NCBI RefSeq assembly: GCF_025175675.1
Contig: NZ_JANIOA010000004.1
Location: 62,001 to 126,000, forward strand
Direction: 5' to 3'
Origin: Sedimenticola hydrogenitrophicus
GTDB lineage: Bacteria > Pseudomonadota > Gammaproteobacteria > Chromatiales > Chromatiaceae
DNA: 64,000 nucleotides
The position numbers and the translations under genes are program-made. This document shows positions 1 to 37,288 of the stretch, piece after piece. How positions within the stretch are numbered: position 1 is the first letter of the stretch; every line of letters starts with the position of its first letter. Under the pieces are notes generated by a model. The model saw only the letters and a list, made by a program, of their open reading frames with translations. It ran no database searches and had not been told where the DNA came from.

Positions 1-683
1 CCGTCTCGCGTCCCGAGGTGATCTTCCGCGAGGTGGACGGCGAGGTGTGCGAGCCCTACGAACAGCTCACCGTGGATGTCGAAGAAGACGACCAGGGCGG
101 CATCATGGAGGCCCTGGGCAGCCGCAAGGGCGATCTGCAGGACATGGTGCCGGACGGCAAGGGACGGGTGCGTCTGGATTACATCATCCCGTCGCGCGGG
201 CTGATCGGTTTCCAGACCGAATTCATGACCCTCACCTCCGGCTCCGGGCTGATCTACCATGTATTTGACCATTACGGTCCGGCCCAGCACGGCGGCATTG
301 CGCCGCGCAACAACGGCGTGCTGGTCGCCAACTCCACCGGCAAGGCGCTGGGCTATGCCCTGTACAATCTGCAGGAGCGGGGACGCCTGTTCATCGAACA
401 TGGCATGGCGGTCTACGAAGGGCAGGTGATCGGTATCCACTCCCGGGCCAATGACCTGACGGTGAACCCGCTGAAGGGCAAGCAGCTGAACAATATCCGC
501 GCCGCCGGTAACGATGAGAACATCATTCTTACCCCGCCGGTCCGCTTCTCCCTGGAGCAGGCACTGGAGTTTATTGAGGATGATGAGCTGGTGGAGGTGA
601 CGCCGAGCGCGATCCGCATCCGCAAGCGTCATCTGAAGGAGCACGAGCGTAAGCGGGCCTCACGGGTGACCAGTTCGGACTGA
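1..683 (+). CDS. typA: GTP-binding protein TypA/BipA, C-terminal part (5' end outside window)
   Basis: This frame is already open at the first base and runs to a TGA at 681-683, so the N-terminal GTPase domain lies outside the window. What remains is the elongation-factor-G-like C-terminal half with the BipA-specific C-terminal domain; the family segments PSRGLIGFQTEF and GGIAPRNNGVLVAN are clearly readable. TypA is a ribosome-associated translational GTPase needed for ribosome assembly and growth under stress or cold. The tail is rich in Lys/Arg, as usual. The gene is not obviously co-transcribed with dtd, which starts about 280 bp downstream. Confidence 0.95.
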   Translation, partial: VSRPEVIFREVDGEVCEPYEQLTVDVEEDDQGGIMEALGSRKGDLQDMVPDGKGRVRLDYIIPSRGLIGFQTEFMTLTSGSGLIYHVFDHYGPAQHGGIAPRNNGVLVANSTGKALGYALYNLQERGRLFIEHGMAVYEGQVIGIHSRANDLTVNPLKGKQLNNIRAAGNDENIILTPPVRFSLEQALEFIEDDELVEVTPSAIRIRKRHLKEHERKRASRVTSSD

Positions 684-4961: not shown

Positions 4962-5071
4962 CAGTTATTATCGAACTCTTCTGGTGGATTCCGGTCCGCC
5001 AGTCAGGTGTTAGTTTCGTAGGCCTTTTGAGTTTAGTTCAATCCGGGCCGTTGTTTTGAGTGGAGAAGAGT

Positions 5072-5320
5072 ATGGGTTTTGGCGGAATCAGTATCTGGCA
5101 GTTGTTGATTGTTCTGGTAATTGTGCTGCTGCTGTTTGGAACCAAACGGCTCAAGAACATCGGTTCTGATCTGGGCAACGCGGTGAAGGGCTTCAAGGGT
5201 GCCATGAAGGATGAAAAGAAGGGTGACGACAGCGCTCGCCTGGAACAGGCCGATGAAGAGAAGATTATTGAAGGTGAGGTGACCAGCAAGGAAGAGCCCT
5301 CCAGCTCCAAGAAATCCTGA
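5072..5320 (+). CDS. tatA: Twin-arginine translocase subunit TatA
   Basis: TatA forms the protein-conducting oligomer of the Tat pathway for folded, cofactor-bearing proteins. The 82-residue product has the N-terminal [15 protein letters not shown], one membrane helix, the [14 protein letters not shown] hinge and amphipathic helix, and a charged tail. I start at the ATG at 5072, preceded by a GGAGAAGAG ribosome-binding site. The GTG at 5060 would add four residues and remove that site. The tatABC genes are close together on the plus strand. Confidence 0.95.
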
Positions 5321-5361: not shown

Positions 5362-5733
5362 ATGTTTGATATCGGCTTCTGGGAGTTGGCGATCATCGGT
5401 CTGGTGGCGTTGCTGGTGGTCGGACCGGAGCGGCTGCCGAAGCTTGCCTATACCGCCGGCAAGTGGATGGGCAAGGGCCGCAAGGTGCTGCAGCAGGTAA
5501 AAAGCGAGATCGACAAGGAGATCAAGGCCGAAGAGCTGAAAGAGATCCTCGAGGAGCAGAAAAAACAGCTCAATCCCCTGGAAGAGATCGTCGAAGAGAC
5601 CAGTGAAACCCTGCGCGATTTTACCCAGGAGGCCAACAAGTCGGTCCGCGAGCTGGAAAAGTCGTCGGCCGGCGAAGATGCCGCAAAGGACCGCCCCGCC
5701 CCCCAGGAGCGTCCCGGTGATACCCCGAAATAG
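5362..5733 (+). CDS. tatB: Twin-arginine translocase subunit TatB
   Basis: TatB forms the substrate receptor complex with TatC. The 123-residue product starts MFDIGFWELAIIGLVALLVV, followed by the conserved GPERLP and a long charged amphipathic region (KVLQQVKSEIDKEIKAEELKE) ending in a Pro/Asp-rich tail. This distinguishes it from TatA. It sits 41 bp after tatA and 15 bp before tatC. Confidence 0.95.
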   Translation: MFDIGFWELAIIGLVALLVVGPERLPKLAYTAGKWMGKGRKVLQQVKSEIDKEIKAEELKEILEEQKKQLNPLEEIVEETSETLRDFTQEANKSVRELEKSSAGEDAAKDRPAPQERPGDTPK

Positions 5734-5748
5734 CCGCAACGAAACCCC

Positions 5749-6921
5749 ATGACCACAGAGAATGACGGGGTGGACGCCCTGACAGAACAACCCTTTGTAA
5801 CCCATCTGCTGGAGCTGCGTGATCGGCTGTTGCGGGCGGTCATCGTCGTGGGGGTCATCTTTGCCTCCCTGTTCTACTTCGCCAATGACATCTACCAGAT
5901 GGTGGCCGGGCCGCTCATGGCTCACCTGCCGGCAGGCTCGTCGATGATCGCCACCGAGGTGGCCTCGCCCTTCCTGACCCCGTTCAAGCTGACCCTGATG
6001 TCGTCGATCTTTATCGGCATGCCGTTCATTCTCTACCAGCTCTGGTCCTTTATCGCGCCGGGGCTGTACAAGCACGAGAAGCGGCTGATGATCCCGCTGG
6101 TAGCCTCCAGCGCGCTGCTGTTCTACATCGGGGTGCTGTTCGCCTATTTTGTGGTCTTCCCCCTGGTGTTCGCCTTCATGGCCAGTACCACCCCCGAGGG
6201 CGTGGTGATGGCGACCGACATCGCCAAATATCTCGATTTTGTCCTCAGCCTGTTTTTTGCCTTCGGGATCGCCTTCGAGGTGCCGATCGCCACCATTATC
6301 CTGGTCGCCATGGGTATGACCACACCGGATAGTCTGACCGAGAAGCGGCCCTACATCATCGTCGGCGCCTTCGCTGTCGGTATGCTGCTGACCCCGCCTG
6401 ACGTGATCTCCCAGACCCTGCTGGCCTTGCCGATGTGGATTCTGTTCGAGATCGGCGTCTTCTTCTCGCGCATGGTCTTGCGCGAGAAGAAGCGGCGTGA
6501 ACGCGAGGTCGAAGCGCAGGATGAAGCGGACACCGACAGCCAGGCGGATAGCGCTGCCGACGCGGTACCGAAGCGGCCGGGGCCGACGGCGGGTGCGCCG
6601 GCGTTTGTCACCGACCCCGCCTTTGAGATGGACGACACGACGCTGGACCCGGAGCGCTTCAAGCCGCTGACCGAGGCCGAGCTGGAGGCCGAGCTGGACG
6701 CCATCGAGGCCGTGGAAGAGGGCGGCGACCTGGGTGAATCCGACGATGAGGGAATGTACGACGAGGTGATCGAGGAGAAGCTGCGGCGGGTACAGGAGTT
6801 TCGTGACCAGAATGAGCAGGTCAAGGCCCGGGGACTGCTGTACGAGATCCTGGGTGAGGCCGGTCCCGAACAGGCCAAGGTGGCCCGCAACATCCTCAAT
6901 CAGCTGGACGAGGATTACTGA
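5749..6921 (+). CDS. tatC: Sec-independent translocase TatC with a long acidic C-terminal extension
   Basis: TatC is the multispanning core of the Tat substrate receptor. Residues 1-245 are a complete TatC: the N-terminal [15 protein letters not shown], six membrane segments, [12 protein letters not shown] near 101-112 and [15 protein letters not shown] near 214-228. The usual length is about 250, but this protein runs to 390. Residues 246-300 are low-complexity and charged, 301-345 are acidic, and 346-390 form a helix-rich tail ([26 protein letters not shown]) that I think resembles the short C-terminal helical module of FimV-like proteins. The frame is uninterrupted, so the tail is a real fusion. 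Its role is unknown. Confidence 0.93.
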
Positions 6922-8707: not shown

Positions 8708-11455
8708 TTATGCCGGTTCCACCCACACCGCCGAAAACTTGAACTCGGGAATCTTGCCGTCCGGGTCCAGTGCCTCGTTGGTCAGCAGATTGGCGGCCGC
8801 CTCGTAATAACAGAACGGCAGGAAGATCTGACCCGGCTGCAGACCGCGGTCGCTCTGGGCCGCAACGACGATCTCGCCGCGCCGTGAGCGAATACGGATC
8901 GGCTCTCCGGCGGTCACCCCCAACTGCTGCAGGAGCTGCGGATGCAGCATCGCCAGCGGCCGTGGCTGCAGGGCGTCCAGTACACTGGCGCGGCGGGTCA
9001 TGGCGCCGGTGTGCCAGTGTTCCAGTTGCCGGCCGGTGATCAGAATCCACGGATAGTTCGCATCCGGCAACTCGTCGGCCTGGGTGAAGGCGGCGGGGAT
9101 CAGCGCCGCCCGGCCCCCGGGGCGTGGGAAGGTGTCGGTGAAGATCACCTCGGTACCCGGGTCCCCCTCCCGCTCACAGGGATAGGTGACGGCGCTCTCC
9201 GCCTGCAGCCGCTCCCAGGTGATGCCGGCAATGCTTGGCATCGCCTGACGCATCTCCGCAAATACCTCGCGCGGCCCGGAATAGTCCCATGTCAGCCCCA
9301 GCCGCCGCGCCAGTTCCGTGATGATCTCCAGGTCCTGGCGTGCCTCGCTCGGGGGATCGAGCGCCCGGCGTCCCAGCTGTACCCGCCGGTCGGTGTTGGT
9401 GAAGGTGCCGTCCTTCTCCGGAAAGGCCGAGGCCGGCAGGATCACGTCGGCGTAGTGGGCGGTCTCGGTCATAAAGATGTCCTGCACCACCAGGTGCTCC
9501 AGCGAGGCCAGCGCCTGGCGAGCCTGGTTCAGGTTGGGGTCGGACATGGCCGGGTTCTCGCCCATGATATACATCCCGCGAATGTCGCCTGCCTCGATCG
9601 CGTGCATGATCTCCACCACGGTGAGGCCGGGTTCGGGATCGAGCGGCACGCCCCAGAGCGCCTCGAAGCGCTGCCGCACCGCCGGGTCGTCGACCCGCTG
9701 GTAGTCGGGATAGACCATGGGGATCAGGCCCACGTCGGAGGCCCCCTGCACGTTGTTCTGGCCGCGCAGCGGATGCAGGCCGCTGCCGGGACGGCCGATC
9801 TGGCCGCTGATCAGGGCCAGGTTGATCAGGCAGCGGGCGTTGTCGGTACCGTGAATGTGCTGGGAGATGCCCATGCCCCAGAAGATCATCGAGCCGCGGG
9901 AGCCGGCATAAACGCGGGCCACCTCGTAGAGGGTCTCTGCGGGAATGCCGCACACCGGCGCCATGCGCGCCGGGCTGTAGTCGGCCAGGTGCGCCTTCAG
10001 CGCCGCGTAGCCCTCGGTGCGGCTTTCGATGAAGTCCCGGTCCACCAGGTCGAGCTCGATCACCGCGTGCAGGATGGCGTTGAGCAGCGCCACGTCGGTA
10101 TCGGGATTGAACTGCAGGAAGTGGTCGGCGTGGCGGGCGATCTCGGTGCGGCGCGGGTCCATCACGATCAGGGTCTTGCCGGCCCGGGCGGCATTCTTGA
10201 AAAAGGTGGCGGCGACCGGGTGGTTGGCGGTGGGGTTGGCGCCGATCAGCAGGATCACCTCGGCCTGCGCCACGTCGGCCACCGGGTTGGAGACCGCGCC
10301 GGAACCGATCATCTGCAGCAGCGCGGCCACCGAGGAGGCGTGGCAGAGCCGGGTGCAGTGGTCCACATTATTGCTGCCGAAGCCGGTGCGCACCAGCTTC
10401 TGGAACAGGTAGGCCTCCTCGTTGGAGCCCTTGGCGGAGCCGAACCCGGCCAGCCCCCGGGGACCAGCGCGTTCGCGGATTTTCAGTAGTCCGTCGGCGG
10501 CCAGCCGCAGCGCCTCATCCCACTCGGCCTCGCGGAAATCGCGCAGCGGATTGTCGTAGTCCATGTCCATGGCGGCGCGCTTGGGGGCATCGGCACGGCG
10601 GATCAGGGGCTTGGTCAGGCGCTGGCGGTGGCTGACGTAGTCGAAGCCGTAGCGCCCCTTGACGCAGAGCCGGCCGTGGTTGGCGGGGCCATCTCGTCCA
10701 TTAACATAAAGTATACGGTTGTCCCGCACGTGGTAGGTGAGCTGGCAACCGACCCCGCAGTAGGGACAGACCGAGTGCACCTGGCGGTCGACTGGTTGCA
10801 GGGCCACATCGCTCGCCGGCATCAGGGCGCCGGTGGGACAGGTCTGCACGCACTCGCCGCAGGCCACACAACTTGACTGGCCCATTGGGTCATCCAGGTC
10901 GAAGCCGATCTGCAGGGCGCTGGCGCGACCGAAGAAGCCGATCACGTCGTTGGCCTGGGTTTCGCGGCAGGCGCGCAGACAGCGCCCGCACTGGATACAG
11001 GCGTCGAGCCGTACCGCGATGGCGGGATGGGAGTTGTCCGGGGCCGGTTGGCTGCGCGACGGGAAGCGGTAGTGGTCGACCCCCAGCTTGTCGCTCCAGT
11101 GATCCAGCTCGTTGTGCCGGGTGTAACCCGCCCGGTCATGGGGCAGGTCAGACTGCAGCAGTTCCAGCACCAGCTTTTGCGCATGCAGCGCGCGCTCGGA
11201 GCGGCTGCGCACTTCCATGCCCGGGCTTGGCTGGCGGCAGCAGGAGGCGGCGAGGACGCGCTCGCCGTCGATCTCCACCATGCAGGCGCGGCAGTTGCCG
11301 TCCGCGCGCAGCCCCTCCTGGTAACAGAGGTGGGGGATCTCCACGCCGTGACGTTGCGCCGCCTGCAGGATGGACTCCCCGGCCAGGGCGGTTACCGCTG
11401 TCTCATTCAGGGTGAAGCGGATGCCGTCGGCGCGGCCTTCAGTCCGGTCGCTCAT
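8708..11455 (-). CDS. NAD-dependent formate dehydrogenase, molybdenum (alpha) subunit
   Basis: This 915-residue FdsA/FdhF-type protein oxidises formate to CO2 at a bis-MGD molybdenum or tungsten centre and passes electrons to the diaphorase encoded upstream. The order is: NuoG-like [2Fe-2S] domain (C44, C55, C58 and C72/C73); His-ligated cluster region near DLPHDRAG; two ferredoxin clusters, CIQCGRCLRAC at 153-163 and CVACGECVQTC at 196-206; CPYCGVGC at 230-237; and the molybdopterin domains. The active-site residue is Cys371 followed by His372 (TRLCH), not selenocysteine. The start lies 3 bp after the stop of the upstream gene, so the two are one transcript. There is no Tat signal, which fits a soluble cytoplasmic enzyme. 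Confidence 0.93.
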   Translation of the reverse strand: MSDRTEGRADGIRFTLNETAVTALAGESILQAAQRHGVEIPHLCYQEGLRADGNCRACMVEIDGERVLAASCCRQPSPGMEVRSRSERALHAQKLVLELLQSDLPHDRAGYTRHNELDHWSDKLGVDHYRFPSRSQPAPDNSHPAIAVRLDACIQCGRCLRACRETQANDVIGFFGRASALQIGFDLDDPMGQSSCVACGECVQTCPTGALMPASDVALQPVDRQVHSVCPYCGVGCQLTYHVRDNRILYVNGRDGPANHGRLCVKGRYGFDYVSHRQRLTKPLIRRADAPKRAAMDMDYDNPLRDFREAEWDEALRLAADGLLKIRERAGPRGLAGFGSAKGSNEEAYLFQKLVRTGFGSNNVDHCTRLCHASSVAALLQMIGSGAVSNPVADVAQAEVILLIGANPTANHPVAATFFKNAARAGKTLIVMDPRRTEIARHADHFLQFNPDTDVALLNAILHAVIELDLVDRDFIESRTEGYAALKAHLADYSPARMAPVCGIPAETLYEVARVYAGSRGSMIFWGMGISQHIHGTDNARCLINLALISGQIGRPGSGLHPLRGQNNVQGASDVGLIPMVYPDYQRVDDPAVRQRFEALWGVPLDPEPGLTVVEIMHAIEAGDIRGMYIMGENPAMSDPNLNQARQALASLEHLVVQDIFMTETAHYADVILPASAFPEKDGTFTNTDRRVQLGRRALDPPSEARQDLEIITELARRLGLTWDYSGPREVFAEMRQAMPSIAGITWERLQAESAVTYPCEREGDPGTEVIFTDTFPRPGGRAALIPAAFTQADELPDANYPWILITGRQLEHWHTGAMTRRASVLDALQPRPLAMLHPQLLQQLGVTAGEPIRIRSRRGEIVVAAQSDRGLQPGQIFLPFCYYEAAANLLTNEALDPDGKIPEFKFSAVWVEPA

Positions 11456-11458
11456 GGT

Positions 11459-13141
11459 TCAGCACTCCTCCGGAAAATACTGCATTACGCAGCGTAGCGG
11501 ATTGGGCGCCGCCTGGCCGAGCCCGCAAATGGAGGCATCCGTCATCACCTCGCAGAGCTCCTGCAGCAGCGGCCGGTCCCAGCGGGGTTCATTCATCAGG
11601 CGGGCCGCCTTGGCCGTACCGACGCGGCAGGGGGTGCACTGGCCGCAGGATTCGTGGGCAAAGAAGTGCATCGCGTTCAGGGCCAGGTCGCGCACGTTGT
11701 CGCGATCGGAGAGGACGATGACGGCGGCCGAGCCGATGAAGCAGCCGTGCTCGTTCAGGGTGTCGAAATCGAGCGCCAGGTCGCCCAGCCTGGCGGGCAG
11801 GATACCGCCCGAGGCGCCACCGGGAAAATAGGCCTTGAACTGGTGTCCCTCCAGCATGCCGCCGCCATACTCGTCGATCAGTTCGCGCACGCTGATGCCG
11901 GCCGGGGCGAGGTGTACCCCGGGACGGCGCACCCGCCCGCTGAGCGAGAAGCTGCGCAGCCCCTGGCGGCCACGGCGCCCCTGGGCGGTGAACCAGTCCG
12001 CGCCCTTCTCCAGCAGTTCCGGCACCCAGTAGAGGCTCTCCATGTTGTGTTCCAGGGTGGGGCGGCCGAACAGCCCGCGCTCGGCGATGAAGGGGGGGCG
12101 CAGCCGCGGCAGGCCGCGCTTGCCCTCGATCGACTCGATCATGGCCGACTCCTCGCCGCAGATGTAGGCCCCGGCGCCGCGCCGCAGTTCGATCCCGGGC
12201 AGCGGGCAGGGCGGATCGTCGCGCAACGCCTGCAGCTCGCGCTGCAACAGGGCGCGGATGCCGGCATACTCGTCGCGCAGGTAGATGTAGATCTTTTCAA
12301 TACCCACCACCCGGGCGGCGATCAGCATCCCCTCCAGAAAACGGTGCGGATCACGCTCCAGGTAGTACCGGTCCTTGAAGGTGCCCGGTTCGCCCTCGTC
12401 GATATTCACCGCCATCAGGCGCGGTCCCGGGTAGCCGCGGACGACGCGCCACTTGCGCCCCACCGGGAAGCCGGCGCCGCCCAGGCCGCGCAGGTTGGCG
12501 TCCTCCAGACAGGCGATGACGGCCTCGCAGGCCGCCTCGTCGCCATGCTCGACCAGGGTTCGGAGTCGGGCATAACCGCCGGCGGCTCGGTAGGCGGCGT
12601 AGTCCCGGGCGGTGGCAGGTATCCCGTCGCTGTGGACCCCGGCGTCGAGCGTCTCCCGCACCCGCGCCGGAGTGGCGGCGGCCACCGGCCGGGTTCCCAC
12701 CACCGCCACCGGCGCGTTGTCGCAGCGACCGACACAGGGGGCCCGCTGGATTCGCACGCCGTCACCCAGCGCACCCTGGAGTTGCGCGATCAGCGGCTCC
12801 GCGCCGGCCATGCGGCAGCTGATGGAGTCGCAGACCCGGATGGTCAGGGACGGCGGCGGCGACTCGCTATTTTTCACGACATCGAAATGGTGATAGAAAC
12901 TGGCCACTTCGCAGACTTCCGCGGTAGAGAGCTTCAGGACCTCGGCCAGGGCGGTCAGCAGGCCGCTGTCCAGGTAGCCGCGATCATCCTGGATACGGTG
13001 CAGATACTCGATCAGGCGGTCGCGCCGGCCCTGGCCGGCGTCCAGATAGCCTTGCACGGTGGCCAGGTCGGCGGCATCCGCCTGGCGTCCCCGGGGGCGG
13101 CCGTGTTGCTTTTTTCCGGATGTTTTCAATACCGCCTCCAC
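11459..13141 (-). CDS. Formate dehydrogenase diaphorase subunit: NuoE-like and NuoF-like domains fused
   Basis: The 560-residue product combines two Complex I-type modules normally made as separate FdsG and FdsB. Residues 25-150 are the thioredoxin-like 24-kDa domain with a [2Fe-2S] site (Cys104, Cys109, Cys136, Cys140). Residues 190-560 are the flavoprotein, with NAD/FMN motifs GLGGAGFPVGRKW and NIDEGEPGTFKDR and the [4Fe-4S] set Cys499, Cys502, Cys505, Cys539. It should accept electrons from the alpha subunit and reduce NAD+ (or run in reverse for CO2 reduction). It is the first gene of the pair. No fdsC or fdsD maturation gene is adjacent. Confidence 0.92.
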   Translation of the reverse strand: MEAVLKTSGKKQHGRPRGRQADAADLATVQGYLDAGQGRRDRLIEYLHRIQDDRGYLDSGLLTALAEVLKLSTAEVCEVASFYHHFDVVKNSESPPPSLTIRVCDSISCRMAGAEPLIAQLQGALGDGVRIQRAPCVGRCDNAPVAVVGTRPVAAATPARVRETLDAGVHSDGIPATARDYAAYRAAGGYARLRTLVEHGDEAACEAVIACLEDANLRGLGGAGFPVGRKWRVVRGYPGPRLMAVNIDEGEPGTFKDRYYLERDPHRFLEGMLIAARVVGIEKIYIYLRDEYAGIRALLQRELQALRDDPPCPLPGIELRRGAGAYICGEESAMIESIEGKRGLPRLRPPFIAERGLFGRPTLEHNMESLYWVPELLEKGADWFTAQGRRGRQGLRSFSLSGRVRRPGVHLAPAGISVRELIDEYGGGMLEGHQFKAYFPGGASGGILPARLGDLALDFDTLNEHGCFIGSAAVIVLSDRDNVRDLALNAMHFFAHESCGQCTPCRVGTAKAARLMNEPRWDRPLLQELCEVMTDASICGLGQAAPNPLRCVMQYFPEEC

Positions 13142-37211: not shown

Positions 37212-37288
37212 TGGTGGGCCCACCAGGACTCGAACCTGGGACCAATGGATTATGAGTCCACTGCTCTAACCAACTGAGCTATAGGCCC
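37212..37288 (-). tRNA. tRNA-Ile2 (anticodon CAU)
   Basis: The 77-nt gene reads GGGCCTATAGCTCAGTTGG at the 5' end and has anticodon loop CTCATAA, T-arm GTTCGAGTC and an encoded CCA. CAU could be Met, but the anticodon-stem and variable regions (GCAGTGGACTCATAATCC) resemble the ileX class, and the position after rpoD matches E. coli ileX. C34 would be changed to lysidine by TilS so that AUA is read as Ile. Its 3' end faces the accessory region. Confidence 0.85.

Follow-up and report, generated by a model that had tools for sequence, protein, structure and literature searches.

TatC is usually regarded as a minimal receptor of the Tat system that ends in a flexible cytoplasmic tail. The Chromatiales, the order to which the protein described here belongs, are sulfur-oxidising bacteria and include purple sulfur bacteria and animal symbionts. 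FimV domains, known from the polar landmark proteins FimV and HubP, are described as client-binding sites in one study (PMC9061725) and, in another (PMC12918733), as a principal site at which cytoplasmic clients bind. According to the former, the acidic face of the FimV domain of Shewanella HubP binds the basic GGDEF domain of PdeB (PMC9061725). Among the matches listed, titles and abstracts of the open-access literature contained no report of a fusion between TatC and FimV.

The tatC gene studied here is located in the window, by which we mean the complete stretch of 64,000 nucleotides that was analysed. It is preceded on the forward strand by tatA (5060..5320; PF02416 TatA_B_E, 5e-14) and by a second TatA_B_E gene (5362..5733; PF02416, 4e-10), which was named tatB from its position and length, so that two such genes lie immediately 5' of tatC in tatABC order. 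By eye, hisB, hisH, hisA and hisF are located upstream of tatA. The tatC open reading frame (5749..6921, forward strand) starts with an ATG 15 bases past tatB, ends with a TGA stop codon and codes for 390 amino acids, including an extended C-terminal tail. Its core (residues 1-245; 5749..6483, forward strand) is matched by the Pfam TatC model PF00902 over residues 19-228 (2e-68, 230.8 bits against a curated cut-off of 25.1) and by TIGR00945 over residues 16-233 (242 bits against a curated cut-off of 132.7). PF00902 has no other match in the 4.7 Mb genome, and the frame contains no internal stop. Among named relatives, those closest in the last 60 residues are Sedimenticola selenatireducens DSM 17993 (97%) and S. 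hydrogenitrophicus (95%); the genus belongs to the Sedimenticolaceae within the Chromatiales. No neighbouring gene was found that is conserved together with the TatC module, and in two relatives (L129 and L113) the genes that follow tatC, by eye a LysR-type regulator, gave no hint of a partner. Elsewhere in the window, we noted the C-terminal part of a BipA/TypA gene at the window edge (18-683, forward strand), a molybdopterin oxidoreductase, which by eye resembles formate dehydrogenase, next to a Nuo51-like FMN/iron-sulfur gene to which a thioredoxin-like ferredoxin part is fused (8708-13141, reverse strand), and one tRNA (37215-37288, reverse strand), the sole Rfam match within the window.

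A preliminary description of this DNA had proposed that the TatC frame runs on through a long acidic tail into a helical module, and the 390-residue frame bears this out. It had also placed the end of the core near residue 245. A tail beyond this point is indeed present, but in an AlphaFold2 prediction based on 64 aligned TatC proteins (mean pLDDT 81.1, pTM 0.60) the last core helix extends as far as residue 263, and the tail holds an additional short acidic helix. The linker (residues 246-299; 6484..6645, forward strand) is helical up to residue 263 and is predicted with low confidence thereafter, with residues 274-298 below a pLDDT of 50. It is followed by the acidic motif (residues 300-324; 6646..6720, forward strand; [19 protein letters not shown] type), in which a helix is predicted for residues 309-324, and by the FimV-C-like module (residues 333-389; 6745..6915, forward strand) with three predicted helices at residues 333-353, 357-370 and 373-389. 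From residue 331 onward, the block means of the pLDDT are 65, 94, 94, 94, 89 and 87. Three helices were again obtained when the last 63 residues were predicted alone from 63 rows (pLDDT 89.2, pTM 0.75).

The acidic helix directly adjoins the module and its residues E311, E315 and D317 are nearly invariant. One might therefore speculate that the module folds back and contacts the Tat complex itself, namely its own acidic helix, TatA or TatB, and thereby gates assembly or access of signal peptides. That the module is less acidic than FimV would agree with such an internal role. On the other hand, the acidic motif was recognised by eye in three of 17 TatC proteins from outgroups of the same class that lack the module (G042, G048 and G052), so it is not tied to the module, and we consider this reading improbable. 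In these three outgroup loci (L026, L027 and L209), the C-terminal motif is of the PMT/PMS/PLS-x-EEM-x-AELD type. Because of its presence there, the acidic motif may be older than the module.

The resemblance of the tail to FimV, which had been put forward from its pattern alone, turned out to reflect homology. The window copy by itself stays below the 30.65-bit cut-off of the FimV_Cterm model TIGR03504 at each of three query lengths (18.3, 20.4 and 23.9 bits; 3.2e-05 for the 63-residue piece with 23.9 bits), and 12 of 14 control genomes also have weak TIGR03504 matches with E-values up to 10, none of which reaches the cut-off. The case therefore rests on the family and not on the single sequence. 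At this level the expected profile match was found: all 63 aligned tails (alignment A3) match TIGR03504 at an E-value of 0.01 or better, the best at 7.3e-14, and four of ten relatives' modules scanned singly pass the cut-off. The A3 profile matches the FimV structure 4mal in the PDB (8.6e-08). In a Foldseek search with the predicted model, the six top-ranked hits are FimV chains from 4mal and 4mbq, with E-values that are weak (0.056-0.27, none reaching 0.001); five of these chains superpose at 0.5-0.7 Å over 45-48 columns and 4mal_B at 4.2 Å over 59. In the reverse direction, a profile built from 23 TatC tails only was run against 369 genomes of the class and gave matches in 209 (E-value 0.001), which outside the family of the window lie mostly in FimV-sized frames among the matches listed. 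In a draw across the phylum, the same profile matched 19 of 299 genomes at 1e-5, a count not split by class, and among the matches listed all 19 places besides the window tatC are in frames of 777-1246 amino acids. The agreement of profile matches, predicted fold and reverse recovery of FimV argues that the TatC module and the FimV C-terminal domain are homologous, with the module forming a separate branch.

Several other assignments were set aside. A comparison with TPR families had also been suggested. The Pfam TPR models give no match to the window tail, and we rejected a general TPR protein; TPR_14 is matched by 7/63 of the relatives' tails at E-values up to 0.01. Designed TIM barrels, found in the PDB profile search at 1e-4, were matched through one helix repeated four times, and weak NCBIfam matches of the tails to DUSAM (6/63) and Amuc_1098 (5/63) were likewise discarded. 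A FimV/HubP landmark protein would have a FimV_core/LysM region (TIGR03505) and a single membrane pass ahead of the FimV domain; the whole TatC protein has no match to TIGR03505 in an NCBIfam scan and is a TatC. The genome of the window has four further places with weak FimV_Cterm matches of 12-21 bits, all of which were dismissed. The two that were read (L035 and L036) resemble, by eye, a repeat protein next to a HisRS-like gene and a repeat-containing response regulator. A second FimV_core protein is encoded on contig 1 of this genome (29349-29570, reverse strand; 718-amino acid frame), and no FimV_Cterm match was found on that contig.

Within the order, the fusion is close to universal. We drew 147 genomes of the Chromatiales, of which 144 have a TatC match and 145 a match to the tail profile. 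In 139 of the 144, the open frame that holds TatC and the one that holds the module have the same length, with sizes from 346 to 595 amino acids and a median of 400. The whole protein is in one frame in seven of eight genomes of the same genus (79-95% identity), and in the eighth (G005) it appears as two pieces of one 330-amino acid frame. Named loci were also retrieved by means of the tail, and 76 of these 80 carry both parts in one frame; of the others, L177 belongs to an assembly in which TatC is broken several times by indels, and L117, L118 and L158 start within the gene. Named carriers include Sedimenticola, Thiocapsa, Allochromatium, Chromatium, Marichromatium, Thiodiazotropha, Thiosymbion and Achromatium as well as symbionts of Solemya and of tubeworms. 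For Allochromatium, the copies read come from three species other than A. vinosum. Among the remaining genomes, TatC and module are on separate contigs, each near a contig end, in G055 and G157; they are also on separate contigs in G094, where just the last 25 model positions are matched at a contig start, and in G163 the TatC piece covers only 41 positions. An apparent stop inside the module match of G115 is the gene's own TAG end. In G124 (L180), TatC stops ahead of the module, which follows in another frame and has lost its typical residues; the module may be dispensable or in the process of decay there, or the assembly may contain an error.

The preliminary description had raised a sequencing frameshift at the end of the core as a condition that would undo it. 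A frameshift or misassembly joining tatC to an unrelated reading frame finds no indication in this window and is seen elsewhere only in single assemblies, with indels in L177 or a change of frame in G124. Given the same arrangement in almost all genomes and named loci, we regard an artefact as refuted, with a residual probability that is next to nothing. Outside the order, no TatC with the module was found among the matches listed, and none of the 17 outgroup TatC proteins of the class has one by eye. Among the matches listed, 13 of the class-wide matches were in frames of less than 500 amino acids. Ten of them were fetched (G460, G252, G372, G440, G376, G260, G041, G364, G224 and G287) and contained no TatC; by eye they are FimV-like proteins or C-terminal pieces thereof. 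The reading covers these ten of the 13 short-frame matches listed, the other three being G486, G468 and G367.

Core and module have diverged in step. Over 64 proteins, the pairwise identities of the two parts correlate with an r of 0.57, and with 0.56 when residues 378-387 are omitted; in both cases none of 999 permutations was as high. In seven Sedimenticola sequences (21 pairs), the mean pN/pS amounts to 0.12 in the core and 0.19 in the module, compared with 0.39 in the linker and 0.30 in the acidic motif; these ratios are rough because pS is high (0.57-0.81). Together, these values indicate that the module is under purifying selection. An extension that is neutral or merely stabilising and kept through inertia could account for a linker that varies in length and sequence, but it fits poorly with a module whose pN/pS is close to that of the core, whose invariant residues recur in all 23 rows chosen without bias and which is retained across the order, and we deem it very improbable.

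In quick, unrooted trees built from few columns, the modules and the FimV domains fall into two sets separated by a single branch. The SH-aLRT support for this split is 99 with 63 modules and 37 FimV domains over 49 columns; with 23 modules and the same 37 domains it is 100 over 49 columns and 99 over 39 columns, from which the residues used for picking loci (378-387) were left out. The trees fit a single capture followed by vertical descent, and since FimV is the more widely distributed of the two, the domain would have passed from FimV to TatC.

The conserved residues point to a surface that is specific to the TatC modules. The 80 named loci were chosen with a peptide pattern over residues 378-387, and invariance in this stretch is therefore partly by construction in alignments A2 and A3. 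The 23 tails of alignment A1 were chosen without this pattern. In all 23, R352, A360, R361, L364, Y365, L368, Q375, A379, L383 and D387 are identical; in the stretch concerned, V378, R380 and I382 are each found in 22 rows, N381 in 19, Q385 in 18 and D387 in 23. In the 37 FimV domains, position 352 is mostly I, V or L and position 365 mostly E or D; position 378 is mostly E, as opposed to V in 22 of 23 TatC tails, and position 382 mostly L, as opposed to I in 22 of 23. The FimV set leans towards TatC because it consists of the best matches to the TatC-tail profile, and in the proteins of L075 and L082 a further copy of the domain follows the best-matching one. Over residues 343-386, the mean net charge of the module is +0.1 (s.d. 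1.5, A1) or -0.4 (s.d. 1.8, A3), whereas that of the FimV domains is -6.1 (s.d. 1.6). The residues that changed are presumably exposed on the surface. As both charge and conserved residues differ from FimV, and as the HubP-PdeB contact uses an acidic face (PMC9061725), the module likely has a ligand different from the clients of FimV, a conclusion drawn from sequence comparison and analogy.

The order also offers a view of the module where FimV appears to be missing. The FimV_core model TIGR03505 was found in 142 of the 147 genomes and missed in G067, G071, G072, G096 and G175. In G071 and G175, a strong FimV_Cterm match remains in another frame (61 and 74 bits). The other three, all of which retain the module, are from one genus, G067 and G096 being identified as Candidatus Thiosymbion and G072 placed there by its genus label only; they have no FimV_core match and no FimV_Cterm match above 15 bits besides TatC, and among the matches listed the single tail-profile match of each is TatC. 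The absence of FimV is read from assemblies that are 97-99% complete and is thus strong, not absolute. These bacteria have apparently lost the polar landmark. With regard to TatC, this means that the module need not act through FimV, and its persistence there together with its strong conservation makes a separate binding partner probable.

These findings bear on the idea that the module links TatC to the polar network built on FimV, through shared clients or FimV itself, and so brings Tat export to the pole. The module is homologous to a domain of a polar landmark protein, FimV_core is present in nearly all genomes of the order and E. coli TatC is reported to gather at the poles upon substrate production (PMC3732296). 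However, the module is kept in the three genomes without detected FimV, and its net charge is close to zero compared with about -6 for FimV, while the HubP-PdeB contact is made by an acidic FimV face (PMC9061725). In addition, E. coli TatC clusters at the poles (PMC3732296) even though the PRK10921 TatC model, with 258 positions, leaves no room for the module. We therefore consider polar placement through FimV unlikely, yet a stronger candidate than an internal regulatory role.

We propose instead, with a probability of roughly 60%, that a FimV-derived docking domain became fixed on the Tat receptor TatC and has a surface and a ligand of its own. In an ancestor of the Chromatiales (Chromatiaceae and Sedimenticolaceae), TatC would have acquired, at its cytoplasmic end, the docking domain from the C-terminus of a FimV/HubP-type protein, and this domain would subsequently have evolved its own surface. 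Hanging in the cytoplasm from a flexible linker near the signal-peptide receptor, the tethered module could dock a conserved partner on the cytoplasmic side of the receptor; this partner would most plausibly deliver, check or place Tat precursors. A point against this proposal is that swimming of P. putida and S. putrefaciens is reported to be hardly affected when the FimV domain is deleted (PMC12918733), so that a FimV domain need not be essential. A more far-reaching version, to which we give somewhat less than an even chance, is that all Chromatiales have a Tat receptor with a built-in docking domain of the landmark type and a dedicated putative partner. Taken once from FimV, given a new surface and independent of FimV, the module would then be a lineage-specific Tat component in cis, which steers a class of precursors or places export sites.

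Taken together, one order has fixed a second folded domain on TatC, and the known relatives of this domain dock cytoplasmic clients at cell poles. A FimV domain can thus leave the landmark protein and persist where FimV goes undetected. The invariant residues provide targets for point mutations, making the in vivo contacts of this Tat receptor directly testable. Both halves of the protein are of known kinds, whereas their combination, its fixation across an order and the changed surface appear to be new. Like other TatC proteins defined by PF00902 and TIGR00945, the window protein has a full core above both cut-offs, is encoded in tatABC order and is the only TatC of its genome; it differs by an additional folded domain, attached through a long acidic linker, which the 17 outgroup proteins lack by eye. 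With the C-terminal domain of FimV and HubP (TIGR03504; 4mal and 4mbq), the module shares common ancestry and its position at the extreme C-terminus behind an acidic, flexible cytoplasmic region, but it is located on TatC, is less acidic, has its own invariant residues (R352, Y365, D387 and others) and groups apart from all 37 FimV domains. The closest functional parallel is the docking of PdeB to HubP in Shewanella, in which a membrane protein is reported to recruit a cytoplasmic client through surface contact with its FimV domain (PMC9061725). By analogy, the TatC module may act in the same manner. The Shewanella face is acidic and its client a GGDEF domain (PMC9061725), whereas the TatC module has lost most of this charge.
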